A stretch of 64,000 bases of DNA from positions 1,116,001 through 1,180,000 of the forward strand of contig NZ_CP017015.1 in the NCBI RefSeq assembly GCF_001715535.1, in the 5' to 3' direction. Positions within the stretch are counted from its first letter, which is position 1, and every line of letters starts with the position of its first letter. The DNA is from Spiroplasma helicoides. Its GTDB lineage: Bacteria > Bacillota_I > Bacilli_A > Mycoplasmatales > Mycoplasmataceae. The notes under the pieces are model-generated. The model was not told the DNA's origin and ran no database searches. It was given only the letters and a program-made list of their open reading frames with translations. Below are positions 22,384-29,845 of this stretch, piece by piece. The translations under genes and the position numbers were made by a program.

Positions 22384-24261
22384 TTAAATTACATTAAACA
22401 ATTTATAAAAACTAAATCCAGCAACTCCCAACAATAGTGAAAAAATAATATACCCGAGAACTACAAAATTAGTATCAACTATTCTATTTGTTAGCTTAAT
22501 CTCTTTTGTAAAAATTTTATCAAAATCTTGATACATTGATTGCCTTGGAGCCACCAATATTCCATTTTGTGAAGCATCTTCATTATATGCAAGTTCTTCA
22601 TAAGCACTATTTTGTTCATAAAGATAGGCTCTTACAGGTAAAGGTTCTATATAACTATTTGTCATTGTTAATTGTTCATTTGCAAATCCCATATTTGGGT
22701 TTAAATACATTAGTAAATATTGATGAAAATAAAAAGGATTTTCAATAAAGTATTTTAAATACTTTAAATCATGACTTTTAACAGCATAATATTTAGTTTC
22801 TGTTCTTTCTTTATTAGAAGATACATACATTTTTTCCATATTATAGTTTAAATAGCGATCAATTAAGGTAAAAAAGATTGCCATATATAATCGATTACCA
22901 TCTTTTAATAGAGCTTTATTATATAAGTCTCTTTCATTAATTAAATTTAGTTTTGGTTTACCTTGTCTTCCTCATGAACCATTAACTGAATTATGTTCTC
23001 ATTTATCTGCTAAATAAAATCTACTATCAAAGTATTCTTGAGGACTACGCGATCATGTATAAATAAAATCCCTTATAATTATTTGATTTAATTGATAAAG
23101 TTCTTTTTTAATATCTCCATTACTTATATTTAAATTTAAAGTTGTTTTTATTTTTGCTATTGCTTCATCATTTAGTAATCACATAGAATAATCATTTAAT
23201 TGTGATGGTCCTTTAAGATTTTTAGCACTTCATTGATAATAAAAAGTATCTTCATAGTGATTTTTATTATCACTTGGATATAAAGTATTTATTAAAAACT
23301 GATAAATTTTATTTTTTGAATAATTTGGTGATATTTCATAACTAAAGTTTTTATTGGTTGAAACACTGTTATTTAAAAAATATGTAGAGTCAAGCATTAA
23401 TCCTGATTGAGCAACATAACTATAACCACCCATATATTTATAAAAGTTCATATCTCCCACTGTATCTGCTTGATATAAACATTCATATTCTTCATTTGAA
23501 CATGAATCATTTTGTGAGTTTTTAGCAGTTATTTTATAACTATAATCATCATTTAAACTACTAAAGTTTTTCATCAAATTATAAACAACCCCGTCTTGTT
23601 GATAACTTAATTTTTCAAGATCTAAAAGTGATTGAGTTTGTAGGTTTGGTGGTTCTCAAAGATAATTAAAATCACTTTGAGCACCACTCATATGAACTTT
23701 ACCAATTATTGGTGAACATAAGTAAAATACAAAAACTGAAGAACTCAAAAAATAAACTATTCGCGTTTTTTTAAATGAACAAAAAAATATTAGTAAACAG
23801 CTAAATACAAGATCTAGTAAAAAGAAGGTTAGATAACCAAAAAGTACAGATGAACTATAATAATCAAAGTTAATTGGATTAACTATGTAGAGTCCTAAAT
23901 ATAAAACAACCATTAAAAAAATATTTAAAGGAATAGTAATTAGTTTATTGGCAAATAATTTATAAAATAAAAGCTCACTATGACGAAACTTTTTTGCTAA
24001 CTCTAAATTTAAAATCCCATTATTACTATCTTGAACCATCGCATTAGATATAAAAACTAAGTTAACATAAAACAACAATATTATTCAAAATAGTGATGAA
24101 AAAATTAAGATCATAACAGTTTTATCAGTATTTAAGCTAGTATTTAAAATAAATAAGCTAAAGTTTGATGCAATTACTCCAATGACACTCAATAAAATAA
24201 CAAGTATAAAATACTTATTTTTAAAGTTTCTTCCTATGTTAAACAATATTACATGTTTCAT
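22384..24261 (-). CDS. ABC-2-type multi-span membrane protein, paralog 1
   Basis: 625 residues, start ATG 24261, stop TAA 22384-22386. An N-terminal block of about five hydrophobic spans (residues 15-200, e.g. LITIPLNIFLMVVLYLGLYI) is followed by a 380-residue extracytoplasmic region rich in Tyr, Asn and Ser and a last span near the C-terminus (VVLGYIIFSLLLGVAGF). The layout resembles ABC-2 permeases with a large extracellular loop. No ATPase gene is adjacent. It shares most of its length with the 27974-29845 product, from which it is separated only by the reverse transcriptase pair. Confidence 0.65.
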
Positions 24262-24352: not shown

Positions 24353-25906
24353 TTAACTAAAAAAGTTGGATATAAAATCAAAGTCATCTATTACAGTCTG
24401 TTTTGTTATTTTGATATTTTTATTTATGATAATTTTTAAGATTTCTCTAACAAAAAAACTTTGTAAATGCTTTATTTGATTAAGATTATTTATAAATTTA
24501 TAATTATTTAAAAAACCTGTTGTGTATTTAATTTTATCTTTGTAAAAAACCCTTTTATAAAAAGCCTTTTGTATTAATACTTTACATTTTTCATAACTTT
24601 TTATGTCATTTAGGTAATAATTTAGATAACTTTTTCAATACTTTAGTTTTTTAGTAAACTTACTACTATCTATTTTAATTTTTAAATTATTATCCTCAAA
24701 TATAAATTCATAACCTAAATATTTGAGTGTTTTATCATGAGATTTTTTATCTAAATTTTCAAATGTAAATTTTGTTTCTGAATTTTTTTGTTTGTTTTTC
24801 TTATTCTTTTTTTCTGAAATAGGTTCATAAATAAAAACAGTACTTTTTTTAGTGTTTAAACTTAAATTCAGTGTTTTAAATAAATTTCTAATTTTATTCA
24901 TTAGTAATTCGGAATTATTTAAGTTATTAAATATTATTAAAATATCATCAACATATCTAAAATAACCCAACATATTATAGGTTTTCATTTTAATTAATTT
25001 ATCGATTTTTTTAATTGCATACCATTCTGCAAATAAAGATGAGAAATTTATTCCTTGTGGGAGACCTATTTTTTGATTTGACTTTTGAAAAGCACCTTTT
25101 ATAAAATGCAACAAAATTTTTGTATCTTTTATGTCATACTTTCTTTTTAAAATTTTTTTTCAAGCAATATCTTTATCTAAGTCTTTTTCAATTTCTTGTC
25201 AATCAATGGCCCTTCAATCAATTGAATTGAAATAACCTTTAATATCTATCTTCATAATTGGTAACTTCATTTGTTTTTGAATTAAAATATTATTCAAAGT
25301 ACTATATAAATTATATATTATTTTATTTCTTGACTGCCTATGATTGAATAAGCTATTTTTACTAACTATTTTGAATATATAATTCGATACAATTTTATCT
25401 TTAAAACTTTGGTTGAATATTTCTCTTTTATTATTTGATCATTTCATGTATTTATAAAAACTGTAATTTTTATTCTTTATTGATTTCAGGCAATTAAATA
25501 ACAAATCTTCAAGTATCTCATATTTAAAAAAATTTTTCCTTAAATTATAATCTATAGCTTTTTTTATATTTTTTTTGAAACGCTTGTATTTTTTTGTTTT
25601 TTGATCAAATTTGCTTACCGAAGTACTCAGATTTTTAAGTTTTTTAGTAATTATGCTATTTTTTAAATCAAAATCGATCAAAATAGCTTTTATCCTATTA
25701 AAGAGCTTACTTCTAATAATTTTATTTAATCCATAACTTTCCATATAAAATGACTCAACTATGAAATACAGCTGTTTTTTACTAAAATAAACTTTTTTGT
25801 AAAAATTATCTTTTATATAAAAATTATCTTCTAGTTTTTTAAAATTTTCATCAGAAAGAATTTTTTTTATATTAAAATTATTTTTATTTCTCATATTTAA
25901 ATCCAT
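24353..25906 (-). CDS. Reverse transcriptase 2 (GLPQG type), putative antiviral
   Basis: 517 residues. RT core: motif A IMKIDIKGYFNSI with Asp221, GLPQGINFSSLFAE at 281 onward, and the catalytic box YFRYVDDILIIF with YVDD at 318-321. A Lys-rich region follows, then a thumb-like CLGYEF-type segment (KYLGYEFIFEDN near 385-396). There is no maturase, endonuclease or integrase domain, so it is not an intron or retrotransposon RT of the usual kind. The chosen start, ATG 25906, lies inside the end of the first RT gene (23-nt overlap); GTG 25918 and ATG 25894 are alternatives. Very low GC and Lys/Asn-rich. Confidence 0.8.
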
Positions 25907-27764
25907 TTCATTTTTCACAGCTTTCTATAATTTTGTTTCATAAATCATCTTCTGATAAATCATGCATAAATATATTGAAAAAATTAGTTTTTCAAAAAAA
26001 GTTGTCTTTATTTTCTACATTTTTTAGCTGAAAAATCATTTTACTTAAGTTAGAATTATTTGCATTTTTTAATTTATTGTTTAGAAAAGAAAAATAATGA
26101 GATAGTGTTGCGTAAGTTGAGTAATTTTCAGTTTTTATAAATTTTCAATCGAAGCTACTTTTTTCGGTTAAATATTTTGCTAACTCAATATTTACTTTGT
26201 TTATATATTTAGTAAATTTCATTTCAATTTCTTCTGATCAATACTCATTTTTTTTGCAAAAAAATAGTATCGTTGTAACCAAAACTCAATTATCTCAATC
26301 AAGCTCGGGATTTCACTTATTTAAGATATTTTCTACAACATCGTTTAAATCATTCTTTAGTATGACATCATTTATTAAAATTAAATTCGCTAAATCTATT
26401 GTAAAAAAATTGTTATCTAGTTTTTTAATTAAAAGGTCTAAGTATTTTTGCAAAAATTTTTTAAAATATATTTTATAACTTTTTAGTAAATCCTTTTTAT
26501 CTTGAAAAGTTACTAACAATAGTTCAATTTTTTTATAATTTACAAACTCGCAATGATTAATTAAAAACCTAATTATAAAAATTAAAGACTTGTTTAGCAT
26601 ATTTTTATTTTTTTTATCTACCTTGATTTTTTTATTTAATTTAATTTTTTTGTGGTTAGTCTCACATTTTTTTAATAAAGTCTTTGATTTTTTTCTTAAT
26701 ATAGAAAAAATATAACTAACAAAAGTTGCATCTCTCATATATATTATCTCTTTTTGTTCTTTACCCTTAATACTAAATTTTTTGATGTATTTTGAAAGTT
26801 TATTTTGAAGTTGCATACTGAATTTATACCTTTTTAATAATTTTTTTACTTTTTTTCTTATATTATAGTAATACTTCAAATCTTTAAAATTATATATACT
26901 TTTATTGGTAGTTTCTTTAAGATATAGCTTGATATTTTTTAGTTTTTTTTCATAAAATTTGCGAATATTTTCAATAGTATTTTCACTTTCAGAAAATATA
27001 TATATATCATCAACATATCTTATAACTTCATAATCCTTTTCATGTAGATTTTCTAGTTCATAATATACTGCTCAATCAATTTTTCCCATTAAACATTCTG
27101 CAAATAATCTAGAGAGCTCTGGACCTATTGGTATACCATTAGTCTCACTTCGTATTGGTAATGTGATAATTTTTTCAAAATCTTTTAAAAAATAGTGATG
27201 ACTTTGATTATTATCATATAAATATTTACCTTTTGTAAAATCATTATCAACTATTCATTGAAGTGTGTGTGAATATATTGATGGAAAAAAATTTTTTATA
27301 TCAATTTTACAAAAAAAATTATATTTTTTATTTTTATAATTATTTTCTATGATTTGTGATAATGTGGTATTTTCATAAAAAGTGAAAAATGGTGCATTTA
27401 TAGTTTCTTCATAAACATGGTCACCCTTGCCATCATCATCGACATTTTTTATAAAATTTGCTATTTGCTTATGTACTCTCAAAGAAAAACAATGATAATG
27501 GTCTAATGTAAGGGATATCGCACCCCATAATTTAAAAAAGTTTTTAAAAATTCATTTATAATAATAGCAATTTATAAAAGTTATTTCACGAATCTTACCA
27601 ATATCATAAAAATAATACTTCATATTAATGTATCCTATTGGTTTTTCAATACTTTCATCATTATATTTCATATCATAAATATTATTTAATATATAAAGAG
27701 TTTCTTGGGGTTGAATAACAAATTTCACAAATTTGTTAAAAAAGATATCATTTTTTTTGCTCAT
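25884..27764 (-). CDS. Reverse transcriptase 1 (GIPIGP type), putative antiviral
   Basis: 626 residues; eight or more TGA-coded Trp. Start ATG 27764 follows AAAGGAG at normal spacing; an upstream extension lacks such a site. RT motifs: motif A FFCKIDIKNFFPSIYSHTL with Asp155, GIPIGPELSRLFAE at 210-223, and RYVDDIYIF with YVDD at 250-253. The remaining 370 residues are helical and Lys-rich, like the alpha-helical C-terminal parts of abortive-infection RTs. The SIYSHTLQW and IGPELSR variants differ from group II intron and retron enzymes. It overlaps RT 2, so the pair is one translation unit. By architecture (two different RTs in tandem) it recalls DRT type 3; that is inference. Confidence 0.8.
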
Positions 27765-27802
27765 TTTGAACTCCTTTGTTAAAATATATTTGTTCTGCTC
27801 AG

Positions 27803-27824
27803 TTAACAATTTACTAATTGTTAA
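27803..27824. repeat. Inverted repeat in the RT leader
   Basis: Perfect 9-bp stem TTAACAATT/AATTGTTAA with loop TACT, 40-60 nt upstream of the first RT gene on its transcript. Confidence 0.7.
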
Positions 27825-27916
27825 TGATATAAAACTATCTATATTTACTGTATTTATAGATATAAACACACAGTATCCTAGCAGGCATTTATTTAGTAAT
27901 TGTAGTTTTAAAAAAA

Positions 27917-27922
27917 ATTATA
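27917..27922 (-). promoter_or_regulatory. Possible -10 box of the reverse transcriptase operon
   Basis: TATAAT on the minus strand, about 150 nt before ATG 27764, leaving a leader that can form the hairpins at 27803-27824 and 27848-27874. Confidence 0.4.
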
Positions 27923-27938
27923 CTTGCTAAATATTCGT

Positions 27939-27975
27939 ATGAGATTATCTATTAAGATAATCTCATATTTTTTTT
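27939..27975. terminator. Strong hairpin terminator, T-run on the plus side only
   Basis: Perfect 12-bp stem ATGAGATTATCT/AGATAATCTCAT, loop ATTA, then T8 on the plus strand. The minus side lacks a T-run, although the only neighbouring coding gene (ABC-2 paralog 2) ends here on the minus strand. Confidence 0.75.
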
Positions 27976-29845
27976 AAATAACATTGACCTTTTTATAAAT
28001 AACTATACCAATTGAACCAAAAAGTAGACAAACAAAAAGATAACCAATTATAACAAAGTTTGTATTAACAACCCTGTTTGTTAATTTCATTTCTTTGGTA
28101 TAAATTTTTTCAAGATCTTGATAAAGCAAAGATCTTGGTTTATTGATATTTGTAAAATCATTATCATATTCTAATGGTTCATAGTTATTATTTTTTATAT
28201 ATCCATAAGTTCTAACAGGAAGTTCTTCAAAAGGACTATAATATAAAGCTTTTTGTTCATTTGCATAACCCATATTAGGGTTTAAATACATAAATAAATA
28301 TTGATGAAAATAGAATGGATTACTAATAAAGTATTTTGTATATTTCATACTTTTATTAGTAATATCTTGATAAATTTGTTCATATCTATATGTATTTCAT
28401 GCAAGGCTATCAGTAGTTGAGTTATAACTTAAATAACTATCAATTAAATTAAAAAATACTGCCATATATAATTTGTTACCGTTTTTTAAAATTGAGTTTT
28501 GATAAATTTGATTTTCATCAACTAATTTTAAAACTGGTTCTTTACCTTGTGATTGGATTTCATCATCTCTGTCTTTAATTCAACCATTAGAAACATACTT
28601 TTTATTATTAACATATTTTTGTTGATTGTCATATCAACTTTTAGTAAAGTCATTAATTACTATTCGATTTAAACTTTTAACTTCATTTTTAATATCACTA
28701 TCACTAATAGTTAAATTTAAGCTTGATTTGATATTTGCAATGGTACTATCTTTTATTAATCAATTTGTGTAATCATATAGTTGATCTTCTCCAGATAAGT
28801 TGGCTTTACTTGGTTTATAGTAAAATGTATCTTTAAAGTGATCTGTATTATTGCTTTGATATAAAGTATTTATTAAAAATAAGTAAACTTTTGATTTTTG
28901 ATAATTTGGTGACAAACTGTAAGTAAAGTTTGTATTAGTTGAAGGACTGTTATTTAAAAAATATAGTGAATCAAGCATTAACCCTGATTTAATAATATAG
29001 TTATAACCACCCATATATTTATAATAGTTTAAATCACTAACTCTACTTGCTTGATATAAGCAATCATACCCATTTGGTCTACAACTACTATTATTACTTT
29101 CTGGTTTAGCACTTAAAGTATATGCATAATCATTATTTAAACTACTAAAGTTTTTCATTAAGTTATAAACTATTCCCTCTTGGTTTTTAGATAATTTTTC
29201 AAGATCAATGACAGATTGAATCTCATATTCTGGAAGTGAACCAGTTTGTGAGTATTCATTTGGAGCAGCAATTTGTTGAATCTTTCCCAATAATGGAGAA
29301 AACATATAAAATACAAAAATTGCAGAACTTAAAAAGTAAACAATTCGCGTATTTTTAAATGAACAAAATAATATTAATAAAGAGCTAAATACTAAGTCTA
29401 GTACAAAAAAAGTTAATAAACCAAATAAAAGCGATGATTTAAAAAAATCATAATCTATTGGATTTATTATATATAAGCCAAGATATAGTAAAAACATTAA
29501 AAAACAATTTGTGGGAATCGTAATTATTTTATTAGCAAATAGTTTATAAAATAACAATTCAATATGGCGATATTTTTTGGATAATTCTAAGTTTAAGATT
29601 CCATTACTAGTATCTAAAATCATGGCATTAGATATAAAACAAAGATTGACATAAAAAAGTAATAAAATTCAAAAACTTATTATTCCAATATATAAACCTT
29701 GAAAAGTATTTTGTGATAAATTAGTTTCAAATGTAAATAAGTAAAAACTAATAGCAATTATTGCTAATAAGCAAATTAGATAGATAATTGAAAAATACTT
29801 ATTTTTAAAGTTTCTATTTATATTAAATAGTATGATATTTTTCAT
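27974..29845 (-). CDS. ABC-2-type multi-span membrane protein, paralog 2
   Basis: 623 residues, start ATG 29845 (MKNIILFNINRNFKNKYF), stop TAA 27974-27976. Same plan as the 22384-24261 product: N-terminal spans, a long Tyr/Asn-rich outside region with conserved stretches (YNLMKNFSSLN, DLEKLS, NPFYFHQYL, YLNPNMGYANEQ) and a final span. The two are about half identical by eye, so they are an old tandem duplication now split by the RT pair. Exporter permease is likely; substrate unknown. Confidence 0.65.

Follow-up and report, generated by a model that had tools for sequence, protein, structure and literature searches.

A divergent DRT3 locus in Spiroplasma helicoides with a candidate guide RNA on the strand opposite drt3b

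Introduction

Two overlapping genes for different reverse transcriptases (RTs) occupy positions 24353-27764 of a 64-kb stretch of the Spiroplasma helicoides genome (contig NZ_CP017015.1; the whole stretch is called the window below). Do they form a DRT3 system and, if so, where is its guide RNA encoded? DRT3 is an antiphage system of bacteria whose two RTs synthesise opposite strands of a repetitive DNA. In canonical DRT3 loci, drt3a precedes drt3b and a non-coding RNA (ncRNA) with a conserved ACACAC template lies downstream (PMC13174585). Escherichia coli Drt3b selects alternating A and C through E22, R71 and R241, and Y666, near its C-terminus, primes synthesis; RecBCD destroys the DRT3 product, and DRT3 is toxic to E. 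coli without RecBCD (PMC13174585). According to a June 2026 review, the taxonomic distribution of DRT3 and the existence of subtypes are still to be characterised (PMC13314766). An initial annotation of the window offered two readings of the pair, a candidate relative of DRT3 or a novel system of two RTs. Profiles and trees uphold the first reading, and the second is not needed: sequence comparison supports a divergent DRT3 pair composed of a Drt3b relative (RT1) and a Drt3a relative (RT2).

Results

RT1 (class 1/UG8 type; 25884-27764, minus strand, 626 amino acids) is matched best by the PADLOC Drt3b profile (E 3.5e-43, 146 bits; next family 5e-22, 76 bits), and RT2 (class 2/UG3 type; 24353-25906, minus strand, about 517 amino acids) by the Drt3a profile (E 3.4e-27, 94 bits; next family 8e-17, 59 bits). 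NCBIfam agrees with PADLOC on both (RT1 Drt3b, E 5e-31; RT2 Drt3a, E 1e-20), and a sequence comparison with the PDB gives Drt3b chain 9z6y as the best match of RT1. Pfam above cut-off gives RVT_1 alone in both RTs, in agreement with the earlier statement that no maturase is present, and group II intron and retron profiles score far more weakly than Drt3. The best families and the fold classes of the two proteins differ, as expected from their earlier description as two lineages and not a duplication. With RT1 as the sole query, neither genome nor viral contigs yielded relatives, and alignments were required to find them; tblastn of RT2 against plasmids gave no match. About 90 Enterococcus faecium plasmids carry an RT that matches the RT1 core, and at locus L013 the gene for this 281-amino-acid RT adjoins insertion sequence elements.

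Both reading frames, translated with code 4 (TGA as Trp), are unbroken across 3.4 kb, confirming the two intact overlapping genes on the minus strand. Drt3b is encoded upstream and drt3a downstream on the same strand (b-a order), and, taking the ATG at 25906 as the start of RT2, the genes overlap by 23 nucleotides (nt). The ATG of RT1 at 27764 has a Shine-Dalgarno sequence, AAAGGAG, 6 nt to its 5′ side (27771-27777). A YVDD catalytic motif (27006-27017 in drt3b and 24944-24955 in drt3a, both minus strand) and the motif A aspartate are found in RT1 and RT2 alike, and the motifs first reported for the pair, GIPIGPELSR, GLPQGINFSS, DIKNFFPSI and DIKGYFNSI, are all present.

Phylogenetic trees, built with 117 further loci, place RT1 inside the Drt3b clade (support 97/97) among Bacillota and Acholeplasmataceae sequences. 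It lies outside the well-supported Gram-negative Drt3b clade (100/99) and apart from both the outgroup UG-type RTs and a UG31-like RT of the same genome. RT2 groups with Acholeplasmataceae and Bacillota Drt3a at weak support (83), and in the two trees the RTs have corresponding mollicute and Bacillota neighbours. The exact neighbours in these trees are uncertain because the branches of RT1 and RT2 are both long. AlphaFold2 models are of medium confidence for both proteins, with a mean predicted local distance difference test score of 68 for RT1 and 74 for RT2. The RT1 model matches DRT6, DRT4, UG15, AbiP2 and AbiK over most of its length, with a helical repeat alongside the RT domain; its Foldseek matches did not include 9z6y, the solved structure of Drt3b. 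The best fold match of RT2 is DRT9, followed by other class 2 RNA-templated RTs, including DRT2, and its N-terminus carries a helical extension of about 95 residues relative to most Drt3a proteins.

Residues of RT1 were assigned from a 38-sequence Drt3b alignment (A3). The catalytic Asp155 corresponds to E. coli Asp182, and Phe160 to Phe187. Arg219, within GPELSR (codon 27108-27110, minus strand), is the equivalent of the cytosine switch Arg241 and is invariant in the 38 sequences, and Arg59 (27588-27590, minus strand), the equivalent of Arg71, is arginine in 36 of them. Glu21 (27702-27704, minus strand) stands in a PxE motif in an invariant column and corresponds to the adenine gate Glu22; this is the least certain of the gating assignments, resting on alignment of a divergent N-terminus. 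The candidate priming tyrosine is Tyr624 (25893-25895, minus strand), the third residue from the C-terminus, which is matched to E. coli Tyr666 by position only, the C-terminal tail aligning poorly. A longer form of RT1 starting at a GTG at 27869 (35 additional residues) was weighed since the E22 motif seemed absent from a first alignment. Adding these residues brought no profile gain, and the ATG at 27764 was kept because the larger alignment puts P19 and E21 in the invariant PxE columns. Drt3b of the Acholeplasmataceae locus L073 (also L005) ends in STQNSDI, and because it has no tyrosine near the C-terminus, priming in this protein may differ.

The position of the ACACAC motif was compared across 82 canonical DRT3 loci and 19 loci of other layout, in which drt3a and drt3b are divergent or separated by a gap (drt3a, gap, drt3b). 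The latter are nearly all from Bacillota, mollicutes or phages. ACACAC or CACACA occurs on the gene strand, no more than 300 nt past drt3b, in 80 of the 82 canonical loci, whereas a downstream same-strand ACACAC was seen in 2 of the 19 others; in this sample a downstream same-strand ncRNA marks the canonical subtype, not DRT3 as such. Conversely, ACACAC lies antisense and upstream of drt3b in 13/19 non-canonical and 3/82 canonical loci, the shuffle expectation for the 19 loci being a mean of 1.4 and a maximum of 5 in 500. The template falls partly or fully in loops in most antisense-type loci when these are folded, and the consensus structure over the Bacillota RNAs is poor, the terminator hairpin excepted. 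A covariance model from six antisense-type loci matches the expected antisense site of Erysipelothrix phage SE-1, which had been left out of model building (E 0.03). This phage (L014 / L054) carries a DRT3 pair and a shortened candidate template (ATACACATCAGCGG) with no full ACACAC, found by the covariance model only. Two divergent DRT3 loci, L117 and L068, have TACACAA in place of ACACAC in their intergenic regions, and the product repeat of these systems may differ.

At the Spiroplasma locus, a candidate guide ncRNA is placed at 27765-27976 (plus strand, ends approximate), divergent from drt3b and beyond the RT genes to which the initial annotation was confined; that annotation likewise overlooked the reversal of gene order relative to E. 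coli DRT3. On the plus strand, ACACAC lies at 27866-27871, at a distance of 102 nt upstream from drt3b; it has the strand and spacing predicted from the Bacillota loci and is the candidate template that Drt3a would copy into poly(dTdG). It is followed by an intrinsic terminator (27937-27968, plus strand; a 14-bp stem, then a T run), which is the strongest plus-strand terminator in the window and has no plus-strand gene before it. The region folds with a z-score of -6.5 on the plus strand versus -4.0 on the minus strand, much of the former due to two 3′ hairpins. ACACAC, plus-strand fold and terminator all coincide upstream of drt3b, and we regard the plus-strand RNA predicted here as the probable guide RNA of the system. 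The intergenic DNA after drt3a contains no ACACAC, and its 91 nt fold no better than shuffles. Another ACACAC, on the gene strand at 27263-27270, was rejected as a template: it is part of the coding sequence of YSHT, and internal AC runs occur in other drt3b genes too. Rfam at gathering thresholds gave no match anywhere in the window.

The Spiroplasma genome is a single contig of 1.33 Mb. A mollicute origin, recognised earlier from the DNA itself, is borne out by spiralin-domain genes within the window and by TGA read as Trp. RTs of this kind had been thought rare in mollicutes, and Drt3b was found in 1/20 genomes of the genus and 2/395 of the class, this genome counted. The DRT3 genes are flanked by two paralogous membrane proteins (22384-24261 and 27974-29845), which are 55% identical and have no Pfam match. 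They are probably ABC permeases, because a second such pair elsewhere in the genome (C1:537935, 542361) encloses genes for an ABC ATPase and a lipoprotein-like protein. The genome also contains a third, single RT of 599 amino acids (G000:C1:492504-492980; L003:943-2742), whose best match is UG31 and which is followed by one open reading frame.

Discussion

The Spiroplasma locus shares with E. coli DRT3 (PMC13174585) adjacent Drt3a and Drt3b RTs with YVDD in both, and equivalents of E22, R71, R241 and Y666 in Drt3b; its candidate RNA would likewise hold an ACACAC template. The locus differs in gene order (b-a in Spiroplasma, a-b in E. coli), in the location of the candidate RNA (opposite strand upstream of drt3b, compared to same strand downstream in E. 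coli), in a longer Drt3a N-terminus and in a host without RecBCD/AddAB, and the proteins share at most 27% identity. Bacillota and mollicutes offer further comparisons. The divergent drt3a/drt3b loci of Lysinibacillus (L094), Terribacillus (L128), Planococcus (L131), Lentilactobacillus (L066), Streptococcus sanguinis (L127), a Lactiplantibacillus plasmid (L011) and Acholeplasmataceae (L073) also have ACACAC antisense upstream of drt3b and fall outside the Gram-negative Drt3b clade, but their drt3a diverges from drt3b, whereas Spiroplasma drt3a trails drt3b on the same strand. Closest to Spiroplasma Drt3b by path length are the drt3a-gap-drt3b loci of Metabacillus (L055), Ruminococcus (L118), Clostridia (L120 and L132) and phage SE-1 (L014). 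These share an antisense ACACAC or shorter AC run upstream of drt3b; they differ in that drt3a comes before drt3b and the RNA faces the 3′ end of drt3a. Among other systems, DRT4, DRT6, AbiK and AbiP2 share with RT1 the class 1 UG RT fold, with its RT domain and helical repeat, but have one RT per system, and their profiles score RT1 much more weakly. DRT9, the best fold match of RT2, and DRT10 are class 2 systems with published ncRNA-templated tandem-repeat synthesis; they have no second RT and use other templates.

Several observations weigh against a DRT3 system guided by an RNA upstream of drt3b. Both proteins miss the curated NCBIfam equivalog cut-offs (RT1 108 of 350 bits, RT2 74 of 200), and the best identity of the RTs to any relative is 24-27%. 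The RT1 branch is very long, the longest in the Drt3b clade, leaving its exact place there unsettled, and the RT1 model is weak around Glu21, in the N-terminus, and around Tyr624, in the C-terminal tail. For the RNA, 3% of dinucleotide shuffles of the region contain ACACAC, the 5′ part folds at a z-score of only -1.8 once the terminator and neighbouring hairpin are removed, the covariance model of six antisense-type loci (R1) gives no match in the window, and promoter matches are at chance level. Identities this low could be read as the mark of an unrelated two-RT system that resembles DRT3 through the fold common to UG-type RTs. That reading is most improbable: b and a were assigned independently to both partners of one system, which are adjacent and overlapping, and clade support and specific residues point the same way. 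The long branch would suit a Drt3-derived pair in which Drt3b specificity has changed, so that another product is made, for example a different repeat or untemplated DNA, in the manner of AbiK or DRT4 but with a class 2 helper. In favour of such a change, the N-terminus that should hold the adenine gate resembles Drt3b by its P-x-E motif only, and extending it upstream of the ATG gained no score. We nevertheless consider it unlikely, as all known nucleotide-selecting and priming residues are present and the ACACAC template for the partner strand is retained, fitting a complementary poly(CA) product.

The doubts about the RNA would be explained if the proteins were DRT3-like but their guide lay elsewhere, inside drt3a or past its end in the manner of E. 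coli DRT3, and if ACACAC and the terminator stood upstream of drt3b by coincidence. The chance occurrence of ACACAC, the silent covariance model and the promoter scans all leave room for this. It is rather unlikely, however, as the sequence after drt3a has neither the template nor a fold beyond that of shuffles, the remaining gene-strand ACACAC lies in coding sequence, the terminator is wrongly oriented for any predicted nearby gene, and 13 of the 19 non-canonical relatives place ACACAC as the window does. The pair could also be a decayed or silent relic gained by horizontal transfer. Its occurrence in a single genome of the 20 in the genus and a G+C content of 0.19-0.21, below the 0.256 of the window, agree with such an origin, and the toxicity of E. 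coli DRT3 without RecBCD (PMC13174585) would favour silencing in a genome where AddAB and RecC were not found. Intact frames over 3.4 kb, the retention of all catalytic and gating residues, the strong Shine-Dalgarno sequence and the overlap of the genes make a relic improbable.

We consider it quite likely that the locus is a divergent DRT3 antiphage system with an opposite-strand guide RNA upstream of drt3b, working as follows. Drt3a would bind the small RNA made from the opposite strand and copy its ACACAC loop repeatedly into poly(dTdG). Drt3b would prime from its C-terminal tyrosine and make poly(dCdA) without a nucleic acid template, Glu21 and Arg219, with Arg59, alternating A and C. The two products would anneal to repetitive double-stranded DNA, which phage infection would allow to build up, so that the cell stops or dies before phage release. 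To this scheme the locus itself contributes the identities of the two proteins, the retention of residues for catalysis, gating and priming, and, for the candidate RNA, its position, strand and surroundings. RNA expression, product sequence, formation of double-stranded DNA and abortive infection are carried over to Spiroplasma by inference from E. coli DRT3.

Neither AddA nor AddB scored above cut-off in the Spiroplasma genome, where RecC was not detected either, and likewise no AddAB or RecC was found in an Acholeplasmataceae genome with DRT3; Metabacillus and Terribacillus genomes with DRT3 do have AddAB. Because the Spiroplasma genome is without AddAB and RecC, RecBCD control as in E. coli cannot apply unchanged, and mollicute DRT3 must be restrained or triggered otherwise, or kept low. 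Their absence is a puzzle, not evidence against membership in DRT3.

Conclusions

That the proteins belong to an established DRT3 system is not in itself new. As far as the literature searched shows (the original UG/Abi survey of 2022 and Deng et al., the first paper on the DRT3 mechanism, lay outside it), three features are new: the b-a order, the presence of DRT3 in Spiroplasma and, in Bacillota and mollicutes, the candidate divergent guide RNA of DRT3. Tentatively, we suggest that Bacillota and mollicute DRT3 may form a distinct subtype, with a guide RNA gene that lies upstream of drt3b and is divergent from it, and that in mollicutes without RecBCD/AddAB restraint and trigger may be unlike the RecBCD guard of E. 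coli. E. coli survives DRT3 via RecBCD, yet two DRT3-bearing mollicute genomes are without RecC and AddAB. DRT3 is the published case of a polymerase whose own amino acids dictate the repeat that it writes. Together with the Bacillota loci, the window offers a candidate subtype in which the guide RNA is relocated and reversed, and sequences this far from E. coli can reveal which residues are essential.
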